64,000 bases of DNA from a virus: the IMG/VR virus record IMGVR_UViG_3300049846_000568, positions 1 to 64,000 of that record, one strand, 5' to 3'. How positions within the stretch are numbered: position 1 is the stretch's first letter; each line of letters starts with the position of its first letter. The notes under the pieces were generated by a model, which worked only from the letters and a program-made list of their open reading frames with translations, had not been told where the DNA came from and did no database searches. Shown here piece by piece: positions 3,458 to 22,198 of this stretch. The position numbers and the translations under genes were made by a program.

Positions 3458-3895
3458 ATGCTGATTCAGGTTTACTGTGACGGTGCTTCTCGCGGCCAAG
3501 GTCAAAAGACAATAGGCGAGGCCGCTTGTGCTACTGTCGTGTATAAAAACGGCAAGGAAATAGCACGCTACGCACGTGGTTTGGGCAAGCGTACAAACAA
3601 TGAGGCGGAGTACGAAGCCGTCATCACGTCGCTCCTGATCTGTTCAATGGCGGACCTGTATGATCCGATCATCTATTCAGATTCAGCGGTCGTCGTAAAC
3701 CAGATTACTGGCAAGTGGGAGTGCAAGAACGAACACCTACTTCCTCTGCTCCAGTCTATCAAGATCATACAGGAGCAATTCAGATTCCGCATAGAGCAAG
3801 TACCCCGTAAGGTGGTCTCGGAGGCGGACTTCTATGCCAATCAGTTCCTCAACCAGCTTGAAGAAGTTAAAGCAGAGATTGAGGCTAACCGCTAG
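3458..3895 (+). CDS. rnhA: ribonuclease H (RNase HI type)
   Basis: Cleaves RNA in RNA-DNA hybrids, probably removing primers or R-loops during phage replication. The 145 residues match the short RNase HI fold. The first acidic residue is D8 in YCDGASRG, the second is the glutamate in NNEAEYEAV (about residue 49), the third the aspartate in YSDSAVVVNQ (about residue 73), and the fourth region is SEADFYANQ near the C-terminus. Length is typical of stand-alone RNase HI proteins without a hybrid-binding domain. Strong AGGAG before ATG 3458. It sits apart from the replication genes on the other strand. Confident in the family; the exact in vivo substrate is inferred. Confidence 0.92.
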   Translation: MLIQVYCDGASRGQGQKTIGEAACATVVYKNGKEIARYARGLGKRTNNEAEYEAVITSLLICSMADLYDPIIYSDSAVVVNQITGKWECKNEHLLPLLQSIKIIQEQFRFRIEQVPRKVVSEADFYANQFLNQLEEVKAEIEANR

Positions 3896-5709: not shown

Positions 5710-7047
5710 ATGAAAAGAAGCATCTCCCTAGATGAATCAGGGCTGAAGTCGATCATTGATATGGGTGCGGGAGCATCCAGATCCGATGACATTGATCTTG
5801 TCTCAGCCCTCAAGGTAATGGGTAACATGGGATATCTCAACACCGGATTGATGCCTACCGATGGCTCCGGTGTGGTCAGTGTGCGACGCGCACTTGGATA
5901 CACCCAGGTTGCATTCCAGATGGCTCCAGGTGCATACTTCACCATCTGGGGCGAGTATGAAGGTGCAAGTAGCGCCAAGAACTACATGCTCGCCCACCCT
6001 TACAGACTGTTTGTCGTTGATTTCAACGGCAACCAGTTCATGGGTGCTCGCCATTTCCTTGCAACTGCACCGATCAATTCACTTGATCAGCAGTTGTACC
6101 ATGTCAACCTACCGAACACGAACTGCCGTGGTTACAGCCGAGGAGTAACCGTTGGTTGGACGTGTCTGTATGGTCACGACATCCCCACCAAGCTAGAAAC
6201 ATTTGGTGAGTGGATTCACTGGGCGGTGCTTCGAATGAGCGGTGACGAAGCCTACAACGACGGTAATATGTACAAAACCGACGGGCCGCGTACATACCAG
6301 GAATGGCTCGGAAACGATTCCAAGAAATCATTCTTGTGGAATCCAACCGCTTGGGCAAAAAAGACAGAGGTTGAGGGATGGGAATGGACCCTAGACGAGA
6401 GTCTATGGATGCCCATCAAGGTCGCCAACAAGGATGCGCAAGAGCGTCACGACGCCAATGGCGTACCGTTTACAGTTGAGTTTGCACTGTACGGAAACTA
6501 TTCCGCACAGTACAACGACACCCCCATCCCTCGCCCCTTCAATGTGATTGATCGAGACGACCTTAAGGAACTCGATCCCAAGCTAATTGTCTCGACCATA
6601 ACCGCAGCTGTTGTTGCCGCCAAGAGCGGTAATCCCGCCAAGACGCCTATTGGTTATTGCGCAGCCTCTGGGGCGCCAATCTACAATGGTGATAGGACCT
6701 ACTGGGGCTACGATGCAGGAGGCAAGAAGGTCACCCTACTCGTTGAAGCTGCTGATCCCAACGGTTGGGTGCAAGAGTCGTCCACTGGCGGGTTCATGCA
6801 TAAGGACACGCTCTACCGCGACGTCATCACCAGTAGGTACTACAAGCATGAGGTAAACGGTCAGTCCGTCGCCAAGCGCTGCAACAAATGCCGCAAAGAC
6901 GGCTCTGTCTACTCTGTTCGTTACGGCTCTCGGAAGACCTGGTGTGCTCCATGCTTCCGAAAGTCGGAGCAGGAGAAGATGGCCAAAAGCCAGGCAACAT
7001 CCGCCACCGATACAACCACGGTCAAGCAGGCCAGCACCGACTTCTAA
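5710..7047 (+). CDS. E2-like protein fused to C-terminal zinc ribbon
   Basis: 445 residues, start ATG 5710. Around residues 129-155 it reads LYHVNLPNTN, then a glycine-rich stretch, then GWTCLYG. This parallels the E2 active-site pattern (H-P-N, loop, G-x-x-C) and the LYHxPxxNV..GxxCxG motif of bacterial E2-like (PRTRC-B type) proteins, with a longer loop. The likely acceptor cysteine is C152 (C139 is the alternative). A zinc ribbon with CNKC and CAPC follows near residues 395-425, then a polar T/S-rich tail. By family analogy it would carry the ubiquitin-like protein as a thioester, with the ribbon contacting substrate or E1. It directly precedes the JAB gene. The E2 assignment rests on motif reading and local context, so moderate confidence. 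Confidence 0.6.
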   Translation: MKRSISLDESGLKSIIDMGAGASRSDDIDLVSALKVMGNMGYLNTGLMPTDGSGVVSVRRALGYTQVAFQMAPGAYFTIWGEYEGASSAKNYMLAHPYRLFVVDFNGNQFMGARHFLATAPINSLDQQLYHVNLPNTNCRGYSRGVTVGWTCLYGHDIPTKLETFGEWIHWAVLRMSGDEAYNDGNMYKTDGPRTYQEWLGNDSKKSFLWNPTAWAKKTEVEGWEWTLDESLWMPIKVANKDAQERHDANGVPFTVEFALYGNYSAQYNDTPIPRPFNVIDRDDLKELDPKLIVSTITAAVVAAKSGNPAKTPIGYCAASGAPIYNGDRTYWGYDAGGKKVTLLVEAADPNGWVQESSTGGFMHKDTLYRDVITSRYYKHEVNGQSVAKRCNKCRKDGSVYSVRYGSRKTWCAPCFRKSEQEKMAKSQATSATDTTTVKQASTDF

Positions 7048-7071
7048 TAGTCTGAAAGGTTATTCATTAAG

Positions 7072-8337
7072 ATGTCTGATACCCCCGACGATCTCATCGC
7101 AGAAGAGGATATCCCCTTCTTTATGCTCGATGAGTGGACGAAGTGCTACATCGCGCTTGACTCTCTCGAAGATACCTGCAAGCACCTCGATGCTGCTGGT
7201 CTAGAGAACTACTACGTTCTCGCCATGGAGAAGCGTACGTTCGACTCCACCAACTCTGCTGGCGCAACCACGACTTCGGTGCGCTATAACCCGCAGGTGT
7301 TTGCGGTCAACACCACGATCTGTTACCGCGCGATCTCGCCAGTGGAGCACAAAGAAGTGCCGCTGGAGGAGATGGAGACTCGTGCGTCCTTTACCCTCCC
7401 AAGGATCCCCGCAGATATCGTCAATAGGCTTGACGATTTCTTCCGTCTGGTTGATCGCACTCACGGCACTGAATCTATCGTTCTACTTACCTTCGACCCG
7501 AATGCGGTCGATGAGGACGGTCGATGGAGCAGCGATGGCTGGGGTGTGCTTGTCCCCGACCAGGAGAACACCGCCACCGACTGCGAGTACGATCCAACAA
7601 GCGCCGCAGACAAGAAAGATGAGGACGTCTACATCGTAGGCTCGGTGCACAGCCATCCTCACATGAGCGCTTTCGCTTCGGGTACCGACCACAAGGATCA
7701 GAAGCACTTCGACGGTCTGCATATCACCTACGGTTGGCAGTCAAGCGTACAGAACGGCGCCACGCAGTATCATATCGAGCTGCAGATCAACGGCACGGTT
7801 TGGAGCCTCAAGCCCGAGCAGGTGTTTGAGTCTGAGCCCCCTCGTGTTCCTGACCCCTCCGTAGAGGAGTGGATGGCGAACGTCAAAAAAAAGACATACA
7901 GCACAGGGTACTCACGGCAGGGGAGCTCTCACAGCTCGCATGGGAGTACTACGGGTACATCTAGTCACCGCAGTGGCGGTTCTCTACAGCGAAGCATGCG
8001 CCTCCAGGAGATCAAGGGGCTTCCCACCGGTGCCCCCGACTGGAAGGAGAACATCCTCGTAGGACGCCTAAAAAGCACTACTGAAGAGGATTGCCCGTTC
8101 TGCAACCAGCCCCTGATCTCGCCGGACCGGACCAATCGTCTGTGCTCCGCATGCCACATGTACCTCGCAATGCCTGGCGAGACGGTCGAGGATGTGTTCA
8201 AGCAGCGCAGTGACGAGCAGCTCTACACCTGGGATATCGACCTCGAAGAGAACCCGACCAAGCCCATCGTGCTCTGGGAGCGCGACGTAGATGAGGCGAC
8301 CTTCACCAACGTCTACACCCCGGCGGGAAAAGACTAG
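7072..8337 (+). CDS. JAMM/JAB metalloprotease (deubiquitinase-like)
   Basis: Zinc isopeptidases of this family remove ubiquitin-like tags or trim their C-termini. The complete JAMM signature H-x-H-P-x6-S-x2-D is present: H193, H195, S203 and D206 (SVHSHPHMS ... SGTD). A C-terminal zinc ribbon follows (CPFC ... CSAC, about residues 342-365) after a serine/glycine-rich linker. The 0-frame ends at TAG 8335-8337, but the last sense codons form the slippery heptamer GGGAAAA (8325-8331), and the -1 frame is open without its own start codon. A 628-residue JAB/zinc fusion is therefore likely to be made too. Neighbours are E2-like, E1 and ubiquitin-like genes. Family assignment is strong. Confidence 0.88.
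   Translation: MSDTPDDLIAEEDIPFFMLDEWTKCYIALDSLEDTCKHLDAAGLENYYVLAMEKRTFDSTNSAGATTTSVRYNPQVFAVNTTICYRAISPVEHKEVPLEEMETRASFTLPRIPADIVNRLDDFFRLVDRTHGTESIVLLTFDPNAVDEDGRWSSDGWGVLVPDQENTATDCEYDPTSAADKKDEDVYIVGSVHSHPHMSAFASGTDHKDQKHFDGLHITYGWQSSVQNGATQYHIELQINGTVWSLKPEQVFESEPPRVPDPSVEEWMANVKKKTYSTGYSRQGSSHSSHGSTTGTSSHRSGGSLQRSMRLQEIKGLPTGAPDWKENILVGRLKSTTEEDCPFCNQPLISPDRTNRLCSACHMYLAMPGETVEDVFKQRSDEQLYTWDIDLEENPTKPIVLWERDVDEATFTNVYTPAGKD
8325..8331 (+). other. -1 programmed frameshift site GGGAAAA
   Basis: In the JAB frame the codons are GCG GGA AAA GAC TAG, so G-GGA-AAA fits the X-XXY-YYZ slippery rule exactly. A -1 slip continues as GGG AAA AGA CTA GGA and stays open for 208 more residues. A small hairpin (CTTCTC/GAGAAG, 8345-8360) and GGAGG (8337-8341) lie just downstream. 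The -1 frame has no ATG, GTG or TTG between its previous stop (TGA 8292) and TTG 8409. Confidence 0.72.
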
Positions 8338-8957
8338 GAGGCGTCTTCTCTACAGAGAAGGTAAACGGCGAAGAGCTAGGGTACTGCCCCACATGCTCAG
8401 CCGTTCTCTTGTCTGAGTATGAGCGAAGCCTCCCCAAATGCCCATACTGCGAGGCGCCTCTTAATGTGGAGGCAGGGTGGTACATCAAGTGCGAAAAATG
8501 CAATGCGCCACTCGAAATAGAATCTCCGATGTGCGAGAACTGCCACGAGATCTACTACGACGATTTCTGGACGAAATTCCTAGATGAATGGGATCCAGAG
8601 TTGGACCTTATCGACTTCGATGAGATGGAAGAGGTCGAAGTAGACTACACCAAGATGTACAAAGACTCTCACAACCTATGCTGCAATATGCCGCCTGAAC
8701 AGTGTGAATGTTTGCGTAAGGCAACATGGAACGACCTATACGACGTTGGTCTTGACTATGTCGAGCAGTACCAAGGAGATATGGATTCACCGTGTTGGCA
8801 GTGCAATAGGGTATGTGAAGCATCGTGTCCACCACTTCGAGTGTGGGCGCGCGAAGCAATCTTGGGCGCTAGAGATATCGGGAAGATATCTCCGTGTTCG
8901 GAGTTTGTTTCTTGGGATTCCGTTTCCGTTGGTCCAATACAGGACTACGAATACTGA
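8331..8957 (+). CDS. multi-zinc-ribbon domain, probable frameshift extension of JAB
   Basis: Read in the -1 frame relative to the JAB gene. It contains a chain of cysteine pairs: YCPTC, KCPYC, KCEKC, MCENC, then CCNM..CEC and CWQC..CEASC, separated by an acidic aromatic stretch (DEWDPELDLIDFDEMEE). These look like two or three zinc ribbons, loosely like RING or rubredoxin knuckles. The only in-frame start, TTG 8409, has no ribosome-binding site and would delete the first ribbon half (YCPTC), so fusion to JAB by frameshift is the better model. If RING-like, it could select substrates for tagging or de-tagging (inference). It ends 17 bases before the E1 gene. Confidence 0.7.
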   Translation, partial: RLGGVFSTEKVNGEELGYCPTCSAVLLSEYERSLPKCPYCEAPLNVEAGWYIKCEKCNAPLEIESPMCENCHEIYYDDFWTKFLDEWDPELDLIDFDEMEEVEVDYTKMYKDSHNLCCNMPPEQCECLRKATWNDLYDVGLDYVEQYQGDMDSPCWQCNRVCEASCPPLRVWAREAILGARDIGKISPCSEFVSWDSVSVGPIQDYEY

Positions 8958-8974
8958 TAGGATCAGACTAACCA

Positions 8975-9778
8975 ATGGCTGACAAGGCATATAGGTTCGT
9001 AGTGATTGGCGCAGGCGGCATCGGATCGTCCCTGTGCAATTACCTCGCGATGATGCTGGAGTACAAGGCACCATTTTCGGGCCTACTCATCGTAGATGGC
9101 GACACATTCGAACCAAAGAACAAAGAGCGCCAGCTCTTCAAGGAGTATGGCAACAAGGCTGAGTCTCTCGCAGCCGATCTCGCACCTCAATACTCCAAGA
9201 CCGCCATCATTCCCATTGGGAAGTGGGTGGTGGAGACGGTTCCAGAGGATGCGGAGAGCGATACTCTGATCACCGCCGCGAGCCTACTACAGGAGGGTGA
9301 CGTAATCTTCCCCGTAGTAGACAACTTCAAGGCACGTAAGCTCATCTTCGACGTTGCTTCCACCATGGACAACATCGATGTAATCTCTGCTGGTAATGAC
9401 GACGCGCTATTCTGTAGCATGTACCACTACCAGCGTCGAGATGGTAAGGATGTAACCATGCATCCGCGCCACCTTCACCCGGAGTATGAGAACCCACCGG
9501 ATCGAAACCCGGGTGAACTCAGCTGTCAGGAGCGAGCCGCTATCGAAGGCGGTACTCAGCTTCTGGCAGCAAATGTTGGAGCTACCGCACTCATCCTAGG
9601 AAAGGTGCAGACGGTAGTATTCGACGCAGCAGAGCGAGACGACGAGAATGAGGACTACCCAGACGAAACGTTCTGGCAGATGGACCAGGGTCTCGCCGCA
9701 TCGTTCAACCGTTCAGCTGAACAACTGGCGTCGGCGGAAGTCGAGGCTGGTACTCTTACAACTACAGGAGTAAGTTAA
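8975..9778 (+). CDS. thiF-like: E1-like activating enzyme (ThiF/MoeB fold)
   Basis: Adenylates the C-terminus of a ubiquitin-like protein and passes it to a cysteine. The 267 residues show the Rossmann nucleotide loop IGAGGIGSS (11-19), the ATP site D41-x-D43 with N49, R52 and Q53 (DGDTFEPKNKERQ), and VDN at 115-117. C184, in the segment PGELSCQER, sits where E1-like proteins of PRTRC-type systems have their conserved cysteine. There are no rhodanese or extra zinc domains, unlike housekeeping ThiF/MoeB. The ubiquitin-like gene starts one base after its stop, implying a functional pair. Family sure; the specific partner is inferred from adjacency. Confidence 0.9.
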   Translation: MADKAYRFVVIGAGGIGSSLCNYLAMMLEYKAPFSGLLIVDGDTFEPKNKERQLFKEYGNKAESLAADLAPQYSKTAIIPIGKWVVETVPEDAESDTLITAASLLQEGDVIFPVVDNFKARKLIFDVASTMDNIDVISAGNDDALFCSMYHYQRRDGKDVTMHPRHLHPEYENPPDRNPGELSCQERAAIEGGTQLLAANVGATALILGKVQTVVFDAAERDDENEDYPDETFWQMDQGLAASFNRSAEQLASAEVEAGTLTTTGVS

Positions 9779-9779
9779 T

Positions 9780-10037
9780 ATGGCTCAGGAAGCGCAGGGT
9801 AGCGCAGCACAGCAGGGCAGCCAGAACGCTCGCGTTCGTTACGGCGTCCACAACCGTCAGGGTGAACTGGCGGGTAAGAGCATTGCGCAGGTTCGCGCAG
9901 AGCTTGGTCGTCCTTGGCAGCTGCCAACGGATGCTTCGGCATTCAAGGGCACCGAGAAGCTTGATGAGGACTACGTCATCAAGCCCGGTGAGTCGATCGA
10001 GTTCCACCGTCGCCAGGGTGAGAAGGGTCTCGCCTGA
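9780..10037 (+). CDS. ubiquitin-like (beta-grasp) modifier protein
   Basis: 85 residues, start ATG 9780, one base after the E1 stop. After a disordered Q/A/S-rich N-terminus (1-16), the rest fits a small beta-grasp fold: beta strand (ARVRYGVHN), turn, amphipathic helix (SIAQVRAELG), then a final strand (SIEFHRRQ). The tail reads G80-E-K-G83-L-A. PRTRC-C ubiquitin-like proteins, as I remember them, end in a similar FRR..G-x-K-G. No terminal diglycine is present; removal of Leu-Ala by the neighbouring JAB enzyme would expose G83. Identified by tail, size and gene neighbours, because beta-grasp proteins have little sequence signature. Confidence 0.72.
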   Translation: MAQEAQGSAAQQGSQNARVRYGVHNRQGELAGKSIAQVRAELGRPWQLPTDASAFKGTEKLDEDYVIKPGESIEFHRRQGEKGLA

Positions 10038-10071
10038 AGCTCGGTAGGGCCTAACTAAGGTCCTGTAGGAG

Positions 10072-10103
10072 ATAGCCCCAGGGTGTTCGCGCCCTGGGGC
10101 TAT
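10072..10103 (+). terminator. strong hairpin after the ubiquitin-like gene
   Basis: ATAGCCCCAGGG (10072-10083) pairs perfectly with CCCTGGGGCTAT (10092-10103) around an 8-base loop. There is no T-run afterwards, so it may be an attenuator, an mRNA-stabilising structure or a factor-dependent terminator that protects the short upstream mRNA. Confidence 0.6.
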
Positions 10104-10133
10104 TCCTCAAATCCCGGTACTAGAACGCCCGGT

Positions 10134-10814
10134 ATGCCATTGAAGACTTCTCAGAAAATCTCATCTGTTGAGCGAGCCTGTAGGTTTGAAGGATGGGAGC
10201 CCAAGCAGAAGGCTAATCGGGCTGCAAGATCAAACTTTCCAGACATCATCTCTACCGGCTCGGCGGTTGGACTTTTGGGTCCCGCTGACGTACGGTTCTA
10301 TAGCTCCGTTGGTTATGAACAGGATCAAATAACCACCGTCGAGCGCGTTTACTTCCCCAATTACATCACACTGAAGAACGACTTGACCACGTGTGGATAC
10401 GGCGGAGTAAACGTTGTCAACGAAGACATCTTCGTTTACCTGTCTACTGTCAAAGACGGTAGCATTAGCGCTTTGTTCTTAGATCTCTTTGGTTTTGCAG
10501 ACCTGTGCTCCAATTCCAAAACAAAGTCTCGCAATGCTAATCTCGAACTCGTCTGCTCAAAGTTGGCCGACAACTTTCACCTGCAGTTCACGTACGAGAA
10601 CCAACGTTCTGCCCCCCTCTGGCAACAAAGGGCGAAAGAAGCCCTTATAGACCAGGACCGCTCCGTGTATGTCCTGCGAGTCTGCAAGAAGTTGTTAGAG
10701 AAAAGGGGCATTGAAGTAGACAACGGTATTACCTGTGAGTATTCCGGTCTACTTTCCGATGGGCGTCCTCAGAGAATGATCACGTCCTCTTTTGTTGGCC
10801 ACAAGGCTAACTAA
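10134..10814 (+). CDS. hypothetical protein, possibly SAM-methyltransferase-like
   Basis: 226 residues. I choose ATG 10134 because earlier in-frame starts fall in the hairpin. A glycine-rich segment (STGSAVGLLGP, about 42-52), an acidic strand end (TTVERV) and a strand ISALFLDLFG (about 121-130) are laid out like motifs I, II and IV of a class I methyltransferase, but the match is loose and no DPPY/NPPY is present. It lies inside the conjugation module, between the ubiquitin-like gene and the AAA+ gene. Treat the enzyme idea as a guess. Confidence 0.6.
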   Translation: MPLKTSQKISSVERACRFEGWEPKQKANRAARSNFPDIISTGSAVGLLGPADVRFYSSVGYEQDQITTVERVYFPNYITLKNDLTTCGYGGVNVVNEDIFVYLSTVKDGSISALFLDLFGFADLCSNSKTKSRNANLELVCSKLADNFHLQFTYENQRSAPLWQQRAKEALIDQDRSVYVLRVCKKLLEKRGIEVDNGITCEYSGLLSDGRPQRMITSSFVGHKAN

Positions 10815-10849
10815 CCCATATCAGTAACACAAGGATACACACAAACAAG

Positions 10850-11155
10850 ATGACCGATAAGCAGAGAGAGAAGGTATACGAGCTGATCGCTCAGGGTCTC
10901 ACGACTCCTCAGATCGTTAGCCGTATGCGTGGTAAGGTAACCCCAACTCAGGTTGCCGCATACCGTGCTCACTGGACTCTATCGAACTCCCCCAAGGTGT
11001 TCGAGGTTCAGGGTACCTTCATCGTAGAAGCAACTTCCAAGGAAGAGGCTCTTTCAGTGGCCAGCGCTCGCCGTGTACGCGGCACTCGCGTTCTGGACAG
11101 CTCGCTGAGCGCATCCGTCCTGCCATCTTCGCAGGCTGAGGGCTACCTGAGCTAA
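10850..11155 (+). CDS. small protein with predicted helix-turn-helix
   Basis: 101 residues; AAGGA lies 15-19 bases upstream of ATG 10850. Residues 5-30 (REKVYELIAQGLTTPQIVSRM) have the spacing of a helix-turn-helix similar to resolvase/sigma-like HTHs that begin with a pathway of 'Q-G-x-T-x-x-Q-I'. The second half is a beta-alpha-beta-like segment (FEVQGTFIVEATSKEEAL). It may be a DNA-binding regulator or a DNA-associated partner of the module. Not assignable to a family by eye. Confidence 0.62.
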   Translation: MTDKQREKVYELIAQGLTTPQIVSRMRGKVTPTQVAAYRAHWTLSNSPKVFEVQGTFIVEATSKEEALSVASARRVRGTRVLDSSLSASVLPSSQAEGYLS

Positions 11156-11171
11156 TCCCGGTCTTACATAG

Positions 11172-11201
11172 CTTGGGGGTTGCGATGGCGTAACCCCCAA
11201 G
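11172..11201 (+). terminator. intergenic hairpin
   Basis: CTTGGGGGTT (11172-11181) pairs with AACCCCCAAG (11192-11201) around a 10-base loop, between two unknown genes. No T-run follows. It could reduce read-through or protect a 3' end. Confidence 0.5.
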
Positions 11202-11238
11202 TGTACACTGGACAACATACACGAAGAATTGAGACGAT

Positions 11239-11775
11239 TTGGGATTAACAGAAGCAAGAATAACCGAGCTGCAAGAGACACTTCATGCCTTGTTGGGCCC
11301 CGAGCTTAACCAGGTTATTGATATGATGCGTCCAGGCAACGCTGCTTCTCCCTTCCTTGAAATACCTTCGGCCGATAAGGTGGATCTCCCACCCTCCGTT
11401 CTCGCTGATCTTGTAGCAAGAACATCTAATGCTTACGTACGTGCTGCCCGTCTCAATGGCATTGCCAGAGCGGAATATAAACTAGCCGAAGGTAACTACA
11501 AAAAGAAGCTCAAGCAGTCTGTTGGAACTGGCAGGAATCGCGAAGAACGCGAAGCCAATGCCATGGCAGCAGCCTCTGCTGAGTACGGAGCATATATGAC
11601 TCTTGAAGCAATTGTTGAGCTCTCTCAGGCCGCTGAGAACGCTGCTCGCATTGCATCAGAGTCAGCACGAAAGCTCTTGGACAAGGCGTCTGCTATGTAC
11701 ATGGGTTCTGCAAGAGAAGAGCATGGGAACCTTGGTCAGGGCACTTATGGTGGACGCGCAGGATCTTCATACTAA
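11239..11775 (+). CDS. helical coiled-coil-like protein, 178 aa
   Basis: TTG 11239 is the first usable start after an in-frame TGA at 11230; the ribosome-binding site is weak, so the start is uncertain. The protein is alanine/glutamate-rich and helical from about residue 55 to 155, including a long run of A-E-Y/A-A-R heptads, with a G/S-rich tail ending TYGGRAGSSY. No cysteines. It overlaps the next gene by one base (TAATG). Possibly a scaffold or adaptor for the AAA+ ATPase two genes on, which is inference from position only. Confidence 0.65.
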   Translation: MGLTEARITELQETLHALLGPELNQVIDMMRPGNAASPFLEIPSADKVDLPPSVLADLVARTSNAYVRAARLNGIARAEYKLAEGNYKKKLKQSVGTGRNREEREANAMAAASAEYGAYMTLEAIVELSQAAENAARIASESARKLLDKASAMYMGSAREEHGNLGQGTYGGRAGSSY

Positions 11776-12002
11776 TGGCACTTGGGTACTACGGAATCTA
11801 CAGAACGCGAAACTCAACAGCCTCGCTCTCCATCGCTACGGTTAAACAGGAGGAGAATAGTTTTCCTCCCGGCATTACCTACGGTGGGTTGCAGTATGCT
11901 CTCGTAAATGCAGTACAGGTTGCTACACCTGGCCAAGAACGTGCGTTTCAGCAATACTGCGAAGCGCATAACATCGAAACAGACGTAAACATTTACTATT
12001 AG
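11775..12002 (+). CDS. hypothetical protein, 75 aa
   Basis: Starts at ATG 11775, overlapping the upstream TAA by one base, and ends nine bases before the AAA+ ATPase gene. The sequence mixes beta-like and helical segments, with an N-terminal LGYYGIYRTRN and a single cysteine (YCEAHN). No motif recognised. Tight spacing indicates co-translation with the ATPase. Confidence 0.65.
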   Translation: MALGYYGIYRTRNSTASLSIATVKQEENSFPPGITYGGLQYALVNAVQVATPGQERAFQQYCEAHNIETDVNIYY

Positions 12003-12011
12003 GGGACTCTA

Positions 12012-13604
12012 GTGAGCCTTGTCGAGCACCTGAAGATCCGCACCCCCCTCGTGTGGGTTAACACTCCTGAGCCAAACCGGTATCAGGATGTTGTTATGCG
12101 GTTCTGCTCATCCGACCTTTATGCAATCGATCCCAAGCTCGGTTTTTCGATCTGGGATCGCAAGTCCAAGCAGTGGAAGCCGATCCTCTTTGAGATCGAG
12201 AACCCCGCCACCGGTGAGGTAATCGAGGCAGCCACCTTCGAGATGAGCTTAGCGATTGGTTATGTGCTGGACAATCCAGGCACCATGATCATTCACTTCG
12301 CTCACAAGGTAGCGGAAGAGATGTCGGGATTGTTCGCGTGGGTCTTTGGCGATTATCGCAAAGCTTTCCACCAGGACGACAAGGCTCTGCTGGGTCCTCA
12401 GTTCGTTCTGTTTAGCCACGGTGCAGATATCCCTCAGGATCTGACGCACCTGCTAACCGTAGTTGAGCCCGCTCTACCAACCAGCACCGAGCTTGCCGAA
12501 ATCGCCGCTCATGTTGAAGCTAGCATTGGCGAGCACCTCACCTCCGAGGTGGACCTTTCCAAGGTTGGTATGTGCGGTATGGGTCTGACTGAACCAGAGT
12601 TCATCCAGTCTTGCTTGTTGAGTGTGCGGGAGCGCAAAGCGCTTGATCCACAGTTCATCAACGAGTACAAGATGGCCAAGATCCGTGCTGGTGGTAACCT
12701 GGAGATCCGCCGTCCTGGCAGTGGTCTTGATAGCATCGGCGGTATGGACAACGCCAAGAAGATGATTCGGCACATCAAGTGGATGTGGGACAATGAAGCG
12801 GAAGCCCACGAGCTTGGCCTCGAGCCGCTACGACGAGTGCTGCTCGTTGGTGTTCCTGGCACTGGTAAGTCTGCGATCTGTGAGGCAACTGCCAAGGAGC
12901 TGGATCTCGATCTTGCTAAGACCGGCATTAGCCAGAGCCTGAACAAGTTCATCGGTCAGTCCGAAGAGAACATGCGTCAGGTCTTCCGCCAGATCCGTGC
13001 CCTTGCTCCTATCGTCTGCTGGATCGATGAGTTCGGTCGAGACGTCTCTCAGGGCAACTGGCAGGGCGATGGTGGTACCACCTCTCGCGTGCACGGAGAG
13101 TTCCTGACTGGTATTCAGGAGCTTCCCAAGAACGTCTTCCTTATGTGCGCCGCCAACCAAATCGGCCACGTCGCCCCCGAGATGCTTCGCGCAGACCGCT
13201 TCGACAAGATCCTCTTCGTCGGCTTCCCGACCAAGTTGGAGCGAGTCGAGATCTTCAAGATTCATCTAGGCGCATCCGCCAACGACTTCGACCTGGAGGC
13301 GCTCGCGGATAACTCTCCAATGTTCACCGGTGCAGAGATCAAGGCCCTCATCCGTGAGACCAAGAGCAATGTCCACATGGAAGAGCGCCGACCCATCACA
13401 ACCAAGGATCTTCTGGACTTCATTCCAAACATGAAGAACAGGATCTGGCTACGCCACCCCAATGAGGTTCGCGATATGTATATCCGAGCACTAGAAGACT
13501 GGGATTGGGCTTCAAGTGCCCAGCAGGGCGAAGCGGCACTAGTCATCGACGGCCGAGCTGGTCAAATCGTAACCAGCGGCAGGCACGCATACTCAGGATT
13601 CTAA
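12012..13604 (+). CDS. AAA+ ATPase, Ycf46-like
   Basis: 530 residues from GTG 12012 (GGGGA upstream). Residues 1-160 form an inactive-looking N-terminal domain of the Ycf46 type. The AAA+ module then has GVPGTGKS (Walker A, 280-287), WIDE (Walker B, 337-340), a sensor asparagine in CAANQ (about 380) and arginines R393/R396 (RADRFD) as candidate fingers, followed by a helical lid (about 410-460). Such ATPases unfold or remodel proteins. Inside a ubiquitin-like module it could extract or unfold tagged proteins, as Cdc48 or proteasomal ATPases do; that link is inferred. There is no FtsH-type protease domain and no proteasome gene nearby. Confidence 0.87.
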   Translation: MSLVEHLKIRTPLVWVNTPEPNRYQDVVMRFCSSDLYAIDPKLGFSIWDRKSKQWKPILFEIENPATGEVIEAATFEMSLAIGYVLDNPGTMIIHFAHKVAEEMSGLFAWVFGDYRKAFHQDDKALLGPQFVLFSHGADIPQDLTHLLTVVEPALPTSTELAEIAAHVEASIGEHLTSEVDLSKVGMCGMGLTEPEFIQSCLLSVRERKALDPQFINEYKMAKIRAGGNLEIRRPGSGLDSIGGMDNAKKMIRHIKWMWDNEAEAHELGLEPLRRVLLVGVPGTGKSAICEATAKELDLDLAKTGISQSLNKFIGQSEENMRQVFRQIRALAPIVCWIDEFGRDVSQGNWQGDGGTTSRVHGEFLTGIQELPKNVFLMCAANQIGHVAPEMLRADRFDKILFVGFPTKLERVEIFKIHLGASANDFDLEALADNSPMFTGAEIKALIRETKSNVHMEERRPITTKDLLDFIPNMKNRIWLRHPNEVRDMYIRALEDWDWASSAQQGEAALVIDGRAGQIVTSGRHAYSGF

Positions 13605-14197
13605 TGGAAGAAGCAACGCTCGAAACAGCAATACAAAACACAGAGGGTGGTAGCTTTGAGCAGCCACTCTACAAGGAGTGGTTCAAGACCAAGGCCGCTT
13701 CTGGATTCATCTCCATTACACCGTGGCGCACAGCTCGCAAGGTAGTGGTAGAGATCGGTAGCATTGGCGCAGACAATAGTGTTACTTCGGCAACGAAGTG
13801 CTATGTCGACGCCTTTGACCTGGCGCTGTACCTTCGTATGGTGACATTGGGTCGCGGCGACCTGCTCTACCCGAAGCGTCATGGTGTTTATTCTCCGGAG
13901 AGCTTCATTCAATTCGGCGGAAGTGCAGGAGCAACACCCATCGCTCGTGTCTTCAAGGTCGAATTTTGGGGAGCCAACTCTGAAAACATTGGCGACCCAA
14001 CTGGTTTCGCTTGGAAGTGTGGCCACTTCGACGGTACCGTTACCGACTCGGGTGCAATTCAGCCGAATTACTCCAAGCCTAGAAGTGGCGATAAGATCAA
14101 GCGGACCAGACTTCAGATGGCTGAGATCAGCAGTAAGATGGATCTGCTGCTGATAGGATGGGCTGCACAGGATCCAAACTGGTACCACAGTGACTGA
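13604..14197 (+). CDS. hypothetical protein, 197 aa
   Basis: ATG 13604 overlaps the ATPase TAA (TAATG). It is beta-rich, with segments such as ARKVVVEIGSIG, YVDAFDLALYLRMV and VFKVEFWGAN, and ends with a helical LLLIGWAAQDPNWYHSD. No cysteine motif or nucleotide-binding loop. Coupling to the AAA+ gene suggests a cofactor or substrate adaptor of that ATPase (inference). Family unknown to me. Confidence 0.68.
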   Translation: MEEATLETAIQNTEGGSFEQPLYKEWFKTKAASGFISITPWRTARKVVVEIGSIGADNSVTSATKCYVDAFDLALYLRMVTLGRGDLLYPKRHGVYSPESFIQFGGSAGATPIARVFKVEFWGANSENIGDPTGFAWKCGHFDGTVTDSGAIQPNYSKPRSGDKIKRTRLQMAEISSKMDLLLIGWAAQDPNWYHSD

Positions 14198-14498
14198 TGA
14201 TCTAGATGACGTAAGCGTATTACGCCGCGAACTACAGGGTGTTTTTGCTGAACTCGATAAGCGATTCACGCTTCTTGAGCAGATGCAGGAAGCCACTGAC
14301 CAGCAGATGGGCATGATTGTTGCCGCTTATGCGGAGATAGCAGCCATGTGCGACGCGCTAAGTGTAATCATGCGTCATTCAGATCCCGAGATCGCTGAAC
14401 GGTTTGATGAAGAACTGGCCAGCTCTCGAAAGAGGATGCTATCGGTGCTCGAAAGGATCAACCAGAGTGTGGAAGACGGAAGTACAACAACTTCCTAA
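14190..14498 (+). CDS. coiled-coil protein, 102 aa
   Basis: GTG 14190 lies within the end of the upstream gene. Nearly the whole protein is predicted helical, with heptads (LRRELQGVFAELDKRFTLLEQM, residues 11-32, shown by key positions L/L/F/L) and a second helix around 60-95. Ends in a polar S/T tail. It resembles small phage coiled-coil proteins of no known function. Confidence 0.62.
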   Translation: MTDDLDDVSVLRRELQGVFAELDKRFTLLEQMQEATDQQMGMIVAAYAEIAAMCDALSVIMRHSDPEIAERFDEELASSRKRMLSVLERINQSVEDGSTTTS

Positions 14499-14751
14499 CC
14501 CATGGAGAACTTGGCTTTCTGATACCGAATTGATAGGTCCTTCCTCGGGTGTGGCGGTATTGTATATACCCCACGCCCTGGAGGGATTATCTGACAGTTT
14601 CGAGTTTTGCGCGAAAGCGTGGGGCCTCGCCAAGTCTGTCCATCCAGACCTCAAGTCGTTGATTGTAAGCTCAGACGTGATTTATGGACTGGTCCTTGAA
14701 GGAACAGTTGTCTTATCGGATGTAAAGGTACATCATGGTCGACCTGACTAA
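14467..14751 (+). CDS. hypothetical protein, 94 aa
   Basis: GTG 14467 has AAAGGA about ten bases upstream and gives a 32-base overlap with the preceding gene; earlier starts lie deeper inside it. Alternating hydrophobic strands and helices (GVAVLYIPHAL, SLIVSSDVIYGLVLEG) suggest a small alpha/beta fold. It overlaps the next gene by 17 bases. No family recognised. Confidence 0.58.
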   Translation: MWKTEVQQLPNPWRTWLSDTELIGPSSGVAVLYIPHALEGLSDSFEFCAKAWGLAKSVHPDLKSLIVSSDVIYGLVLEGTVVLSDVKVHHGRPD

Positions 14752-15316
14752 AAAGGCTAATCTATTTCTCAAACACTACTTCAATACGGCGACGCCGTTA
14801 TGGAAGGTGGGTGTTACCGAGGCTTATGTCGGCACCGAAGGGGCCACACACGCCATTGAGCTAACCCAAAAGAAAGTCAACAAGCTTGGGTTGGACAGTG
14901 CGAATCTTAGGGTTGTTGGTGGTGGTCCCAGACATCTGGCGAAGAAATACTTCACCGAGATTGACGAAAGCCCCGAGAAGTGTCTGCCATCCGAAATCGA
15001 GCAGATCATCGAGATCCTCAAGCAGTCAAATGGGATCATGCAAATTGGTGGCGGTCACGGCAGGGCTACCCTGTTCAACCTCGAAGGTCTGATCGATTCG
15101 TATGAAGCCAACAAAACAACCCTTCTCACCGTACATAAAAGCGATGTCGGTGGACTCGCTGATGCAATGATCTCCGCTATTGCTCGCCAGCAGGACGACA
15201 TCACCGTACTGCGCAAAGAGAATCAAGAATATCAAGATGAAATCGCTCGGCTCCAGTCTGAAGTTGGTAACCTCCGATCTGAGGTCGCGATTTACTCATC
15301 GGCTACATGGGCTTAA
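14735..15316 (+). CDS. protein with C-terminal coiled coil, 193 aa
   Basis: ATG 14735. Residues 1-140 look alpha/beta, with glycine-rich turns VVGGGPRHL and QIGGGHGRA that resemble, but do not match, nucleotide-binding loops. Residues about 150-185 form a clear coiled coil with heptad L/I positions (ITVLRKENQEYQDEIARL). Likely an oligomeric adaptor in the module. Function unknown. Confidence 0.65.
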   Translation: MVDLTKKANLFLKHYFNTATPLWKVGVTEAYVGTEGATHAIELTQKKVNKLGLDSANLRVVGGGPRHLAKKYFTEIDESPEKCLPSEIEQIIEILKQSNGIMQIGGGHGRATLFNLEGLIDSYEANKTTLLTVHKSDVGGLADAMISAIARQQDDITVLRKENQEYQDEIARLQSEVGNLRSEVAIYSSATWA

Positions 15317-15326
15317 GGAACAATAC

Positions 15327-16127
15327 ATGAACAACTTTAACGGCCCGGAGCCGAAGAAACTCAGCTACACTGATATCGTCAAGATGATGGGTATCAAGCC
15401 GTCTGGGTCCAATCTTCAAGAGATCTCCAACGAAGAGATCGCTGAGCATATGAGGCCTCCGTCTGTTGACTATGAGGTCTATAACGACAGCAGTCACCCC
15501 GACGTTAAGAAGGCTATCTACAGTAGCGAGGATTCGATCCTGCGCTTCTATCTGCCTGATGGCTGGGAGGTTGTTGACGTCAACCATGTCGCAGTCCTCA
15601 GGGGTGTCAACGCTGGGGTTGAGACGTTTGGCGCCGCCGAGGTCGCATCTATAAAGATCGACTCCGAGAATCAGCGTACTTGTATGTACTTCAGTCCAAA
15701 CAAGTACATGATCGAAGATGATCCAAGTCTTCAGCTAGCCGAGGATTTCGCATTCCACAAGCCCGCTTCGAGCTGCTCGTGCTCGCACCCTATGGCACGG
15801 GAAAAGCGCCCCCACATCAACGCTCCATGCAACTTCTTGGAGCAGCAGCAGCGTTGTAATCTGTATACCCCGCAGGAGTGGACGCCGGTAGAGATGGTCA
15901 AGGCTACCTCTGGTGAGGTCGAGGAGGACCTTCTTCTAGAGGAAACCCGCATTGGCTACGGCAAGGTGCAGTATCGCATGAGTGTCAACGGTAGCACCGG
16001 TGACCCCTACGATACGCGCGATCACTTCGACGCTGCAGTTCAGGCATATGATTCTGCCCAACAGATCGCTGCCGATGAGGAAGAGGTCACAAAGGAGTCC
16101 TTCCTCGCATCCATTCTTTCCGACTAA
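15327..16127 (+). CDS. cysteine-cluster protein, 266 aa
   Basis: ATG 15327 follows TAAGGAACA, a good ribosome-binding site. The N-terminal half is beta-rich; a cluster C-x-C-x-H ... H-x4-C ... C (CSCSHP to QQRC, about residues 150-177) could hold one or two metal ions. The C-terminal 60 residues are acidic and helical. Sits directly before the two E2-like genes, separated by 18 bases, so it is a candidate E3-like or scaffold component; this rests on position and cysteines only. Confidence 0.65.
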   Translation: MNNFNGPEPKKLSYTDIVKMMGIKPSGSNLQEISNEEIAEHMRPPSVDYEVYNDSSHPDVKKAIYSSEDSILRFYLPDGWEVVDVNHVAVLRGVNAGVETFGAAEVASIKIDSENQRTCMYFSPNKYMIEDDPSLQLAEDFAFHKPASSCSCSHPMAREKRPHINAPCNFLEQQQRCNLYTPQEWTPVEMVKATSGEVEEDLLLEETRIGYGKVQYRMSVNGSTGDPYDTRDHFDAAVQAYDSAQQIAADEEEVTKESFLASILSD

Positions 16128-16145
16128 TCGGAGTACCTTATCACT

Positions 16146-16922
16146 ATGCCTAAGTTTATCGAAGTAACCATCGGAAACAACTGGACGCAGATCCGCAACG
16201 GCCACGAACACATAGACGTTCACAGCACGGATGTGATTCGTGAGCTGTTTGGATTCCCTGTCGAGCACAGCAATATCTTGCCTCCTGTAGTTCGATGCTT
16301 CAATCCATCCATGTCGGCTTTCCTGGTAGAGCGTACCCCCTTTGTTGCCTCCATCTGGTACAAGAACGCCGGTACACATGATCATGGCGAGTTCGTTAAC
16401 TACAAAATCCCTATCCCGTGGACTGTGTACTTAGTCATACTAGACGCAGAAAACAACCCAATAGAACTTGGGGCTTGGGCTCGCCCTTCGCAGATGTACG
16501 TAGAGGAAGACGAGCTTTATCACCTTCCGATGCCTAACGTCTATGACGGTGGTGGCACGTGTTTCGGTACCGCAAAGCTCGATAGTGGTCGCGATAAAAT
16601 GACCATTGGAGACGGTATTACCGCGGCCATCCAGGGATTCTGGTCTTCCCAGTTCAACAACGATCTTTCATGGTACCCCTACATTGCCGAGTGGATTGGA
16701 GCGGATCCATCGAAATATGATTGGGGAGATGTTGCGTTAGCTATGGAAGCTTGGTCTCAGCTTGGGATCCAAGACGTCATGAACGCCCCAATGCGTAAAG
16801 AAACCACCGTCGGAACCGTCATCCAACATCGCCTCTCGACCAACCCAGCGAAGTTGAGCCCGGCTGGTGCGGTGATGAAGCTGGAGATGTTGTTCCAGCG
16901 TTGGCTCTCAGGAGGCAAGTAA
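16146..16922 (+). CDS. E2-like (ubiquitin-conjugating-like) protein 1
   Basis: 258 residues, ATG 16146. The segment 124-141 reads LYHLPMPNVYDGGGTCFG. This follows the classical E2 active site (H-P-N-V-Y-x-x-G-x-x-C) and almost repeats the LYHAPFFNVYEDGRVCLG-type motif I remember from bacterial PRTRC-B proteins. Upstream strands fit the E2 sheet (VVRCFNP..AFLVERTP, IPIPWTVYLVILD). The candidate thioester cysteine is C139, and the downstream FWSSQFN matches the conserved aromatic helix of that family. It would accept the ubiquitin-like protein from the E1 encoded at 8975. The stop overlaps the start of its paralogue (TAATG). Motif match is strong by eye; activity is untested. Confidence 0.72.
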   Translation: MPKFIEVTIGNNWTQIRNGHEHIDVHSTDVIRELFGFPVEHSNILPPVVRCFNPSMSAFLVERTPFVASIWYKNAGTHDHGEFVNYKIPIPWTVYLVILDAENNPIELGAWARPSQMYVEEDELYHLPMPNVYDGGGTCFGTAKLDSGRDKMTIGDGITAAIQGFWSSQFNNDLSWYPYIAEWIGADPSKYDWGDVALAMEAWSQLGIQDVMNAPMRKETTVGTVIQHRLSTNPAKLSPAGAVMKLEMLFQRWLSGGK

Positions 16923-17779
16923 TGCGATTCTCCTTTAAGACCTTCTTCAACCAGACAGTAAAAGAAGGTATCTCGGTTAGTAAGGTGGACACTGCTTTCG
17001 CTATCAGCGATGGCGAAGAACTCATGCCACTCAAGTCTTTCGAGCCCACCACTTTCTTCGACCGCCTCTTCAAAGCAAACGAACCAAACATTGGTTTACT
17101 CCCCCCAGCGGTACGTTGGGTAAGTAAGGATCGTAAGGCTGTTGTCTTCGAGAGGCCACCTTCTCAATACTTCATTGAAGTAGCCTGGGAGCGAAAAGAA
17201 CTCGCTCACAGTGCTCCAAAGAAGGTGTTCGAGCTTCCTATTCCGTGGACTGTATACCTAGCGTACTTCGATGCAGGGTACAATCCGGTCAAGGTCTTCT
17301 GCTACACAAGGCCGGGGCCAATCACGGCGCTACAAGATGAAGTGTTTCTTCTACCGATGTTCAACATCTACATGGATTCTCATCTGTGTAACCCTGTCGT
17401 AGGGACTTTTGAAGACCACCCAGAAACCCTTTCATGGGGCGTACAAGAAGTCTTCAATATGGTGTGGAACTCGGGTTTCAACCTTGACCTGATGGATGCG
17501 CCAAAGCAGGCTTGCAATCTTTCGGCGCCATGCTCACATAGGCGCACCAATGTCCGGGATGCCCTTACCGGATTCTTGATGAACTGGGCGGACATGAGCC
17601 TGTCTGATGTTCTCACCGCCAAATTCCCAATCCCAAGCGTCACCCCAAGTGGTTATGATCCGCCCAAGAAAGTCACCTTGGAGGATGCTATCGCCACGCT
17701 CTACCAAAGGATGCTGGAACAGCAGGCCACCGGTCCTCAAGAGACTATCTCTAACCTCATAAACGAGTTTTCTTTCTAG
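16922..17779 (+). CDS. E2-like protein 2, paralogue of previous gene
   Basis: 285 residues; ATG 16922 overlaps the upstream TAA. It shares the layout of its neighbour: ILLPPAVRW-type strand, ELPIPWTVYLAYFDAGYNP (the same IPWTVYL core), then FLLPMFNIYMDSHLC with C156 at the E2 cysteine position, and a downstream FNMVWNSGFNLDL. The histidine of the H-P-N motif is replaced by leucine/phenylalanine, so catalysis may differ, for instance as a non-catalytic E2 variant forming a heterodimer with E2-1 (compare Uev1/Mms2; an analogy, not evidence). It is the last gene before a promoter-bearing gap. Confidence 0.68.
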   Translation: MRFSFKTFFNQTVKEGISVSKVDTAFAISDGEELMPLKSFEPTTFFDRLFKANEPNIGLLPPAVRWVSKDRKAVVFERPPSQYFIEVAWERKELAHSAPKKVFELPIPWTVYLAYFDAGYNPVKVFCYTRPGPITALQDEVFLLPMFNIYMDSHLCNPVVGTFEDHPETLSWGVQEVFNMVWNSGFNLDLMDAPKQACNLSAPCSHRRTNVRDALTGFLMNWADMSLSDVLTAKFPIPSVTPSGYDPPKKVTLEDAIATLYQRMLEQQATGPQETISNLINEFSF

Positions 17780-18153: not shown

Positions 18154-18355
18154 CGAAGACGATCAGGAGATTGTCTACGGAAACGACGAGCTAGAAACTG
18201 GTGTGTTCTCACTCATAATCAGTTGGGTACAATCACTCATGGCTGATGGAGTAAGTGATGAAGCGGCCCGTGAGAAGGTTGCCAGTTACTTAGATGAAGT
18301 TTCTGAGGCACTAAGATCATACAACAAAGCAGAAGGCAATACATCAAATGATTGA
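18143..18355 (+). CDS. small helical protein, 70 aa
   Basis: TTG 18143, overlapping the previous gene by 11 bases, has GGAAGGGAG upstream at good spacing. The protein is acidic at the N-terminus (PDNEDDQE) and helical afterwards. It overlaps the SSB start by eight bases. No motif. Possibly a small partner of SSB (position only). Confidence 0.58.
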   Translation: MPDNEDDQEIVYGNDELETGVFSLIISWVQSLMADGVSDEAAREKVASYLDEVSEALRSYNKAEGNTSND

Positions 18356-18758
18356 AGGTAGGAACGTAGTCATCCTTACGGGTGGCATTGTGCGGGACCC
18401 CGAGGTTGTAAATGGAAACATCGCCAAGCTTTCTATCGCCGTTGATTTCGGCGGTAGCGAGAAGGGTGGCAACAACACCGGGTACTTCGATGTTACCTAC
18501 TTCTTGAACGGTGATGACAACAAGCGTAACTCTACGTTCGTTGCATCGCAGATCAACGAAGGCAAGATGAAGAAGGGTAGCCAGATCTCCCTCGTTGGAC
18601 GACTGGTACAGGAGCGCTGGACAGACGACAACGGTAACCGATCCAAGGTTGTTGTCGTTGCTGAGTCGATCAGCTACGCTTCTGGTGCTGCCCGCCCAAC
18701 AAATGGCGAGGCTACGGCTTCGGCCGGGGAGGCTTCGGTAGTCATCACTGACTTCTAA
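18348..18758 (+). CDS. ssb: single-stranded DNA-binding protein
   Basis: 136 residues. The OB fold is visible as LTGGIVRDPEV, a variable strand, then YFDVTYF, ..FVASQIN, KKGSQISLVGRLVQERWTDDNGNRSKVVVVAESI, the standard SSB order (K-G-x-x-I/V-x-V-x-G, R/Q-W-x-D..G..R). The tail is polar and ends in ITDF, a weak form of the acidic D-x-x-F tip that recruits partner proteins. It coats single-stranded DNA at the phage replication fork. Overlaps its neighbours on both sides by 1-8 bases, so co-translated with the UDG-like gene. Confidence 0.88.
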   Translation: MIEGRNVVILTGGIVRDPEVVNGNIAKLSIAVDFGGSEKGGNNTGYFDVTYFLNGDDNKRNSTFVASQINEGKMKKGSQISLVGRLVQERWTDDNGNRSKVVVVAESISYASGAARPTNGEATASAGEASVVITDF

Positions 18759-19510
18759 TGACTGAAGAGTTCAGGGAGAGAGACGTCCTAGATATCCTCG
18801 CTGAAGCGCTAGAGGAAGAGCCAGAGGCTGTTGTACCAGCTAAGGCATACATTCCTCTAGCCTTCAATGAGGGCAGGTTACTTGAGGTATTGAGTGAACT
18901 CTTGCCCAAGTACATGCACAAGGCGGATGTTCAGGCAGTTCTGTCTGATATAAGAGAAGAGCTTTACTCTGGCATTGGAGAGAATGGTCTTCGAACGCTA
19001 CATTCTATGACGATGAACTGCAAGCGCTGTGTCGAATTGGCACACCCTGCGGTAATACCGTCTTGGAATGTAACCTCACCAGACTGTGTCTTCGTAGCCG
19101 AGAGCCCTTCTATTTTCTCTCAGGACTCAATGAACTATTTCACATCTTTGTTATCGAAGGTGGGATTTAGTTCTCGCAACATCTGCCTCACCTATGTCAA
19201 TAGGTGCAAGGCTATCAAGCGTAAGCACTCGGCAGACGAGATCACTAACTGCTTGCCATACTTGCATACCGAGATTCAGTTGATGAAGCCTAAGCTCATC
19301 GTTCCAATGGGTCTCATTGCAGCGTCGGCGCTAACCTCGGCCACGCTAGAGCTTGGCGAAGAACGAGGGAGAATCCTATGGATTGGACCTTGGGCGGTAA
19401 TGCCTACTTGGGCTACCGGCTACGCCTTGCGAGCTGGCGGTAGAGTAGCTGAACAGTTTGAATCTGACTTGTTGAGCGCATTTAATTTCACCTACGGAAG
19501 AAGTGAATAG
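18758..19510 (+). CDS. uracil-DNA-glycosylase-like protein (family 4/5 type)
   Basis: 250 residues with an N-terminal helical extension (about 85 residues). The glycosylase part begins at MNCKRCVEL, then FVAESPS (site of motif A, usually G-E-x-P-G), a central TYVNRCKAIKRKHSADEITNC matching the N-x-x-K-C..P.x.R..x.x.E..x.C pattern, and KLIVPMG. Cysteines at CKRC, NRC and NC could hold the 4Fe-4S cluster of family 4. Motif A lacks the water-activating D/E and glycine, so base excision might be lost or altered. Such enzymes remove uracil from DNA; in a phage making dUTP they could edit or police DNA. Superfamily fairly sure, activity uncertain. Confidence 0.75.
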   Translation: MTEEFRERDVLDILAEALEEEPEAVVPAKAYIPLAFNEGRLLEVLSELLPKYMHKADVQAVLSDIREELYSGIGENGLRTLHSMTMNCKRCVELAHPAVIPSWNVTSPDCVFVAESPSIFSQDSMNYFTSLLSKVGFSSRNICLTYVNRCKAIKRKHSADEITNCLPYLHTEIQLMKPKLIVPMGLIAASALTSATLELGEERGRILWIGPWAVMPTWATGYALRAGGRVAEQFESDLLSAFNFTYGRSE

Positions 19511-19890: not shown

Positions 19891-20286
19891 ATGGTGTATT
19901 TGGATACAATTTCTGAAACTGATCAAACAGTAGATGAAGCAGTATCCTTCTACACTATGGTGCATGAGTTTCTACTCGACCGTGACGATCGTGTAGTGTA
20001 TGACTCTGCAAGACATACTTTAGTGGATGTAAAAGATCTCGCCACTAGTTTCATCAACCACCACGCGAAAATCAAAGTTGGGATTGGTGGCGAGATCTTT
20101 TCTCCACACCCTGATATAGTATTCCGTACGCCTATCTACGATTCTCTGTACATCGTTGAAGGCTTCGTGTACTATAATGGTGCTGTCGCGATCATCCGCG
20201 GCACTAAAGAGGACCTTCCTAACCGATACATGTTGTCGGTTGCCAAGCTGACGACACAACTGTTCAGCTACCCCCCGCCCTCGTAG
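19891..20286 (+). CDS. hypothetical protein, 131 aa
   Basis: ATG 19891, one base after the previous stop. Mixed helix/strand protein with a glycine-rich centre (KVGIGGEIF) and a beta-rich second half. Its last 10 bases lie inside tRNA-Arg: the TAG stop is the conserved T8-A9-G10 of the tRNA. No family recognised. Confidence 0.68.
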   Translation: MVYLDTISETDQTVDEAVSFYTMVHEFLLDRDDRVVYDSARHTLVDVKDLATSFINHHAKIKVGIGGEIFSPHPDIVFRTPIYDSLYIVEGFVYYNGAVAIIRGTKEDLPNRYMLSVAKLTTQLFSYPPPS

Positions 20287-20350
20287 CTCAGCGGAACAGA
20301 GCGGCGGACTTCTAATCCGTAGGTCGTAGGTTCGAATCCTACCGGGGGCG
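20277..20350 (+). tRNA. tRNA-Arg, anticodon TCT
   Basis: Acceptor GCCCTCG/CGGGGGC (one G-T pair), anticodon stem GCGGA/TCCGT with a terminal G-T wobble, loop CTTCTAA (anticodon TCT, reads AGA), T arm GTAGG-TTCGAAT-CCTAC, discriminator G350. AGA is a rare codon in GC-rich actinobacteria, so this tRNA should help phage translation. Confidence 0.94.
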
Positions 20351-20352
20351 CT

Positions 20353-21188: not shown

Positions 21189-21209
21189 CTCTTACTAGAA
21201 AGTAGATAC

Positions 21210-21283
21210 GCCGGGTTAGCTCAGCTGGCCAGAGCAGCTGTCTTGTAAACAGCAGGTCGTCGGTTCGAATCCGACACCCGGCT
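21210..21283 (+). tRNA. tRNA-Thr, anticodon TGT
   Basis: Acceptor GCCGGGT/ACCCGGC, anticodon stem GCTGT/ACAGC with loop CTTGTAA (anticodon TGT), T arm GTCGG-TTCGAAT-CCGAC, discriminator T283. CCA is not encoded. Confidence 0.95.
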
Positions 21284-21290
21284 CTTCACT

Positions 21291-22197: not shown

Positions 22198-22198
22198 C

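Follow-up and report, generated by a model that had tools for sequence, protein, structure and literature searches.

A Ubiquitin-like Conjugation Pathway of the Type 6d/PRTRC Kind Predicted in a Tailed-Phage Contig

Organization of the Locus

The stretch of DNA analyzed here (the window) comprises bases 1–64000 of the 145,808-base IMG/VR record IMGVR_UViG_3300049846_000568, a tailed-phage contig with genes for a DNA polymerase, a DnaB-like helicase, a primase, a tail sheath, a portal, and a major head protein. The genes of a predicted ubiquitin-like pathway all lie on the plus strand within positions 5710–17779 and encode a probable E2-like protein with a Cys-rich C terminus (5710..7047), a JAB/JAMM isopeptidase (7072..8337), a double zinc-ribbon protein that is a possible adaptor (8409..8957, with the start at either 8409 or 8466), an E1-like activating enzyme of the ThiF family (8975..9778), an 85-residue ubiquitin-like modifier (Ubl; 9780..10037), and E2-like proteins a (16146..16922) and b (16922..17779). 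A first-pass annotation, made from the letters alone, had proposed that a phage here carries a complete-looking Ubl conjugation pathway, and every gene that it named was found in its assigned place. Family profiles, alignments in which all four components have conserved catalytic residues, the predicted fold of the Ubl, synteny, and independent operons in other phages support the proposal that the gene set, consisting of tag, E1, E2, and isopeptidase, is complete.

JAB Isopeptidase and E1-like Enzyme

The isopeptidase matches Prok-JAB (PF14464; E = 2.8e-5, 24.4 bits, just below the Pfam cut-off of 25) and PRTRC_A (TIGR03735; E = 1.8e-5 over positions 47–191 of the 192-position model, 24.4 bits versus a cut-off of 101.8), and its profile matches the structures of Mov34 and Rpn11. 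The metal and catalytic residues with which it had been annotated are confirmed by an alignment of eight phage homologues, in which E134, H193, H195, S203, and D206 are invariant. A zinc motif, CPFC...CSACH, lies at the C terminus, and the protein is 42–44% identical to its counterparts in the four relatives described below.

The E1-like protein matches ThiF (PF00899) above the cut-off (E = 1.5e-14), and the ATP-binding glycines, D41, R52, K61, D116, and C184 are all invariant in its alignment, in agreement with the ATP site assigned at first reading. The candidate catalytic residue, Cys184, sits in the motif LSCQE. The family profile matches structures of Uba4, MoeB, UBA5, and the SUMO E1; the match to PRTRC_ThiF (TIGR03736; E = 1.7e-4) reaches 21 bits versus a cut-off of 144.75, and other ThiF/MoeB models score higher. 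The zinc-ribbon protein encoded between the two enzymes, in a conserved position, matches PF12773 below the cut-off (E = 0.0012).

The Ubiquitin-like Modifier

The Ubl gene begins 1 base past the E1 stop codon. An AlphaFold2 model of its product, built from 15 phage sequences, has a mean predicted local distance difference test score (pLDDT) of 80, near 90 in the core, and shows the order β-β-α-β-β-β followed by a disordered tail. When this model was compared with the PDB by Foldseek, 49 of the best 50 matches contained ubiquitin, SUMO, NEDD8, ISG15, FAT10, or TtuB-type proteins (template modeling (TM) score by query, 0.48–0.62; E values, 1.6e-3 to 6.7e-3), the lone other match being a tubulin-cofactor complex. 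The predicted structure thus bears out the earlier description of a β-grasp-like protein and supports a ubiquitin-like β-grasp fold; the C-terminal Gly is conserved.

Among 46 Ubls of the lineage, the end GEKG is present in 45, and the remaining one is cut by the end of its locus. Nothing follows GEKG in 40 of these proteins, whereas SL follows in three, NI in one, and LA in one; the window Ubl ends in GEKG plus LA. As the 46 sequences were found with a GEKG pattern, the search itself accounts in part for the invariance of the motif. When the cysteine motif of the E1 was used as a separate pattern, it recovered 39 phage contigs, all 39 of which are also in the list obtained with the Ubl motif; this co-occurrence constitutes an independent test, because the E1 search did not use the Ubl pattern.

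E2-like Proteins

E2-like protein a matches Prok-E2_D (PF14460) above the cut-off of 25 (28.2 bits, E = 1.8e-6) and the canonical E2_D profile with a probability of 98.7% (E = 4e-16); its match to PRTRC_B (TIGR03737) is weak and below the cut-off (0.014). E2-like protein b matches PF14460 below the cut-off (0.01) and the canonical E2_D profile with a probability of 95.4% (E = 1.7e-8). The candidate active-site cysteine is kept in 20 of 20 homologues of E2-like a (Cys139 in LPMPNVYDGGGTC) and in 14 of 14 homologues of E2-like b (Cys156 in LPMFNIYMDSHLC). The two cysteines are therefore as first annotated, but the box that precedes them has the spacing H-x-x-x-P-N rather than H-x-x-P-N, and its His is conserved in neither protein; it is the Asn and the Cys that are conserved. 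The E2 name is used because of family membership, the Cys box, and genetic linkage, and structural support for it is weak. A match of the E2 profile to YopM was discarded as a leucine-rich-repeat artifact.

The gene at 5710 probably encodes a third E2-like protein. In profile-profile comparisons, its family matches the E2_D family with a probability of 88% (E = 2.8e-6) and E2-like a with a probability of 92% (E = 5.4e-7), while six unrelated block or operon proteins used as controls gave at most 0.3%. Its candidate active-site residue, Cys152, lies in LPN..C...GWxCLY, is invariant in five phages, and is followed by the Cys-rich C-terminal part. A C-terminal fragment at the start of the contig (2..364, plus strand), cut by the contig edge, matches the hidden Markov model (HMM) of the E2-like a family over the half that follows the active site (E = 1.1e-4) and may represent a fourth paralogue. 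Among the relatives, G003 has an E2-like gene 5′ of RNase H (HMM, 2.6e-5), G004 has a similar reading frame, as judged by eye, in that position, and G002 has a third gene within the E2a-E2b tandem.

Conservation of the Block in Related Phages

Close relatives did not turn up in near-identity searches or in searches with single proteins; degenerate E1 and Ubl motif searches recovered related loci. Four diverged relatives (G001–G004) are phage contigs of 190, 159, 56, and 68 kb, which together with the window form one group in the E1 tree (100/98). As far as each contig reaches, the order RNase H, 5710, JAB, zinc ribbon, E1, Ubl, small genes, AAA+, E2a, E2b, MerR-like, SSB, UDG is shared, with other genes between RNase H and 5710 and between AAA+ and E2a, so that the gene order proposed as a check on the block is indeed conserved. 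The upstream end of the syntenic block is an RNase HI-like gene (3458..3895, plus strand; PF13456, 2.4e-13; PF00075, 7e-10), whose product is 69–77% identical in the four relatives. The downstream end is formed by the genes for a single-stranded DNA-binding protein (SSB; PF00436, 1.5e-8) and a uracil-DNA glycosylase (UDG; PF03167, 1.1e-12) at 18348..19510 on the plus strand, both of which are kept 3′ of the E2 genes in the relatives.

Operons in Other Phages

Beyond this lineage, an E1 motif identified 56 viral loci, many of them truncated and some of them near-copies of each other; JAB is present in 45, E2 in 34, and the exact order Ubl-E2-JAB-E1 in 21. A predicted pathway of this kind occurs in the cultured phages Bacillus KLEB27-3, Acinetobacter ME3, Salmonella Arash, and Vibrio D69, and existing record labels name PRTRC_A on the KLEB27-3 JAB and PRTRC A in ME3. 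The Ubls of these other operons end in GxKG almost throughout. Several phages encode tandem, head-to-tail poly-Ubls in which each unit ends in GxKG, an arrangement that requires a processing protease. The KLEB27-3 Ubl (L010:2730–3437), annotated only as hypothetical, has four near-identical repeats, each ending in GVKG, and it passes the PRTRC_C and Prok_Ub cut-offs.

Tandem mass spectrometry (MS) of purified Arash particles lists Gp246, Gp247, and Gp248, with 5, 3, and 2 unique peptides, respectively, and the authors allow for carry-over of abundant enzymes into the particles (PMC10585845). We read these three proteins as E1, JAB, and E2, which are therefore made; a structural role is not shown by such low counts and with carry-over possible. 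The Arash Ubl (L018:107–307, ending in GTKG) lies in a frame other than that of the annotated gp251, which seems to be misannotated.

Some loci depart from the simple arrangement. The JAB gene of ME3 (L017:4733–7843) is apparently split by ~2 kb containing a tRNA-Met gene and open reading frames (ORFs) with zinc motifs, possibly an intron or an insertion. Two JAB-E1-Ubl modules (L116 and L118) occur in the 267.8-kb contig IMGVR_UViG_3300042868_009074, through either duplication or chimeric assembly. At L106:13695–14255, a Ubl ending in GSKG-C is fused behind two Rho_N (SAP-like) domains, which hints at a nucleic-acid-bound modifier. MT835529 (L012) was set aside, as it looks like a bacterial MoeB-type locus.

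Comparison with Known Systems

We take the “type 6d” operon to be equivalent to the PRTRC cassette, in line with the families shared here. As described by Iyer, Burroughs, and Aravind in 2006 (PMC1779556), the type 6d operon comprises a small Ubl with a C-terminal Gly, an α-helical protein, an E2-like protein, a JAB with an N-terminal domain, and an E1 without rhodanese; Table 1 of that work lists bacteria for this type, and passages on phages in it concern tail proteins. The window shares with the type 6d/PRTRC plasmid operons (TIGR03735–03738, PF14460, PF14454) a separate Ubl with a conserved C-terminal Gly, an E2_D protein, an N-terminally extended JAB, a ThiF-type E1 without rhodanese, and nearby replication genes. 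Unlike them, it lies in a phage genome, has the order JAB-Zn-E1-Ubl...E2-E2 with several E2-like paralogues, and encodes a Ubl with a different middle that matches no family. ParB and PRTRC D–F were not found among the ten block proteins searched against NCBIfam or among the proteins scanned with Pfam, which represent part of the contig genes. The comparison with PRTRC made in the first-pass annotation holds for the kind of operon. Because its proteins miss the PRTRC cut-offs, the set is, by its sequences, a divergent relative rather than a strict member.

The operons recognized here in KLEB27-3, Arash, and D69 have the same four parts and the GxKG Ubl end, but they are compact, with the Ubl first, one recognized E2, and no AAA+ ATPase of the window family, and KLEB27-3 and D69 have poly-Ubls in place of the single Ubl of the window. 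Bacterial Bil and type II CBASS likewise carry out Ubl-type conjugation with E1, E2, and JAB; they differ in serving host defense and, in CBASS, in fusing E1 to E2, and the similarity of their E1 is weak. The tail assembly proteins I and K of lambda and T1 also pair a phage Ubl fold with JAB, as described in the tail-protein passages of PMC1779556, but they act in tail assembly and without E1 or E2. A search of the open-access literature found no published account of such a phage pathway, and the passages of a jumbo-phage survey that match our search terms do not mention one (PMC7824862).

Proposed Pathway and Alternative Explanations

We consider it quite probable that the block encodes a Ubl conjugation and deconjugation pathway of the type 6d/PRTRC kind. 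As judged from the conserved residues, JAB would trim the modifier after GEKG, taking off LA; the E1 would adenylate the exposed Gly with ATP and then form a thioester at Cys184; the E2-like proteins would receive the modifier at Cys139, Cys156, and probably Cys152 and pass it to proteins, from which JAB would strip it again. The presence of several E2-like proteins, one with a Cys-rich tail, for a single Ubl and E1 suggests that the E2s choose targets without a separate E3. Plasmid operons of this kind adjoin dnaN, dnaX, dnaE, Rad52, RadC, and primase; in the window, the block is flanked by RNase H on one side and SSB/UDG on the other. Because of these neighbors, phage replication and repair proteins are favored as candidate targets, a guess that is somewhat more apt to fail than to hold.

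Several points weigh against the pathway as proposed. The window Ubl (9780–10037) matched no family in sequence-family searches, which included PRTRC_C and Prok_Ub, and its profile matches canonical PRTRC Ubls at the C terminus only. The Pro of the box is missing in E2-like b. The first-pass annotation had anticipated β-grasp and E2 folds, and the former is borne out by the Ubl model, but the E2-like model, itself confident (pLDDT 83), finds its best PDB match in Ubc2 with weak scores (E = 0.1, TM score 0.36). Compared with PDB sequences, the E2 profile reaches one ubiquitin-conjugating enzyme at a nonsignificant E value of 0.87, in an alignment that falls at the PNxYxxGxxC active-site box. 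Finally, neighbors do not prove targets. The weak fold match would suit a system of E1, Ubl, and JAB alone, like archaeal SAMP conjugation; the PF14460-like proteins would then act as substrates or adaptors. The Asn and Cys are, however, invariant in a box that aligns to the E2 active site, the proteins are frequently linked to E1 and JAB, and Iyer et al. (2006) independently assigned an E2 in their passages on this operon type (PMC1779556); that these proteins are not E2s thus appears improbable.

The same enzymes could be imagined in a sulfur-carrier pathway, in which the E1 makes a Ubl thiocarboxylate, sulfur passes to a small molecule or tRNA as with ThiS, MoaD, TtuB, and CysO, and JAB trims the carrier. 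ThiF/MoeB-type E1 proteins and JAB are also present in such systems (PMC1779556), TtuB is among the fold matches of the Ubl, and the phage has many tRNA genes (18 in the window). The conservation of E2-like proteins whose Cys is invariant and the poly-Ubl precursors of relatives argue against a sulfur carrier, as does the failure to recognize a rhodanese or biosynthetic partner among the scanned block proteins, and a sulfur-carrier pathway would come as a surprise here; a role in thiamine or molybdopterin synthesis was likewise rejected, with no partner genes seen in that set. Less remote, but still unlikely, is counter-defense or host takeover, with the phage Ubl placed on host proteins, such as those of defense, or JAB stripping host Ubl tags. 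Bacterial Ubl conjugation acts in anti-phage defense in CBASS (PMC10097602), and the Arash proteins detected in particles could enter with the DNA, subject to the carry-over for which their authors allow (PMC10585845). For such a role, one or two patchy genes would be more likely than a lineage-conserved block beside replication genes, and the JAB, Ubl, and E2 have no match to a PADLOC defense family.

The machinery predicted here, with tag, E1, several E2s, and protease in a phage, is of the same kind as that in dozens of other phages. Ubl conjugation is now known in bacteria from anti-phage defense, and phages carrying the full set reverse that picture. That many tailed phages run their own Ubl pathway, which in some of them includes several E2s and precursors resembling polyubiquitin, and thereby control phage replication proteins, is a tentative proposal that we hold nearly as plausible as its negation; if true, bacterial viruses would be a major, unrecognized home of E1-E2-Ubl signaling. 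The many independent, simple E1-E2-Ubl-JAB sets, including those with poly-Ubl precursors, offer material for studying the origin of ubiquitin signaling, with KLEB27-3, Arash, and D69 available as cultured test cases. For PRTRC, no experimentally defined function was found in the open literature, and phage genetics could supply one.

Other Genes of the Block

The zinc motifs and the AAA+ ATPase previously noted in the same 12 kb are present. The ATPase (12012..13604, plus strand) is of the CDC48/IetA kind (phrog_8638, 1.8e-62) and is ~50% identical in G001–G003. The idea of an unfoldase belonging to Ubl systems generally was rejected, as the gene is found in these three lineage relatives but is missing from the 21 further phage records that contain Ubl operons, and because of this absence it is probably a lineage neighbor. 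Relatives of the ATPase occur in other phages, among them Corndog-like mycobacteriophages and Pseudomonas phage SM1 (Samunavirus), with no Ubl genes seen alongside.

The remaining genes of the block, all on the plus strand, had been suggested to be unrecognized components; this lineage conserves them, but outside it none was seen as a core component. Three small genes (10850–11155, 11239–11775, and 11775–12002) are kept in the same place in the relatives at 33–55% identity, and five uncharacterized genes (13604–14197, 14190–14498, 14467–14751, 14735–15316, and 15327–16127) are syntenic there. The last of these was considered as the α-helical protein of type 6d and rejected, as it gave no profile match. 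An uncharacterized gene at 10083..10814, with its start at 10083 or 10134, has no Pfam match and no counterpart among the ORFs of the relatives. Downstream of the block, at 20277–31971 of the window, 16 tRNA genes are found among small ORFs.

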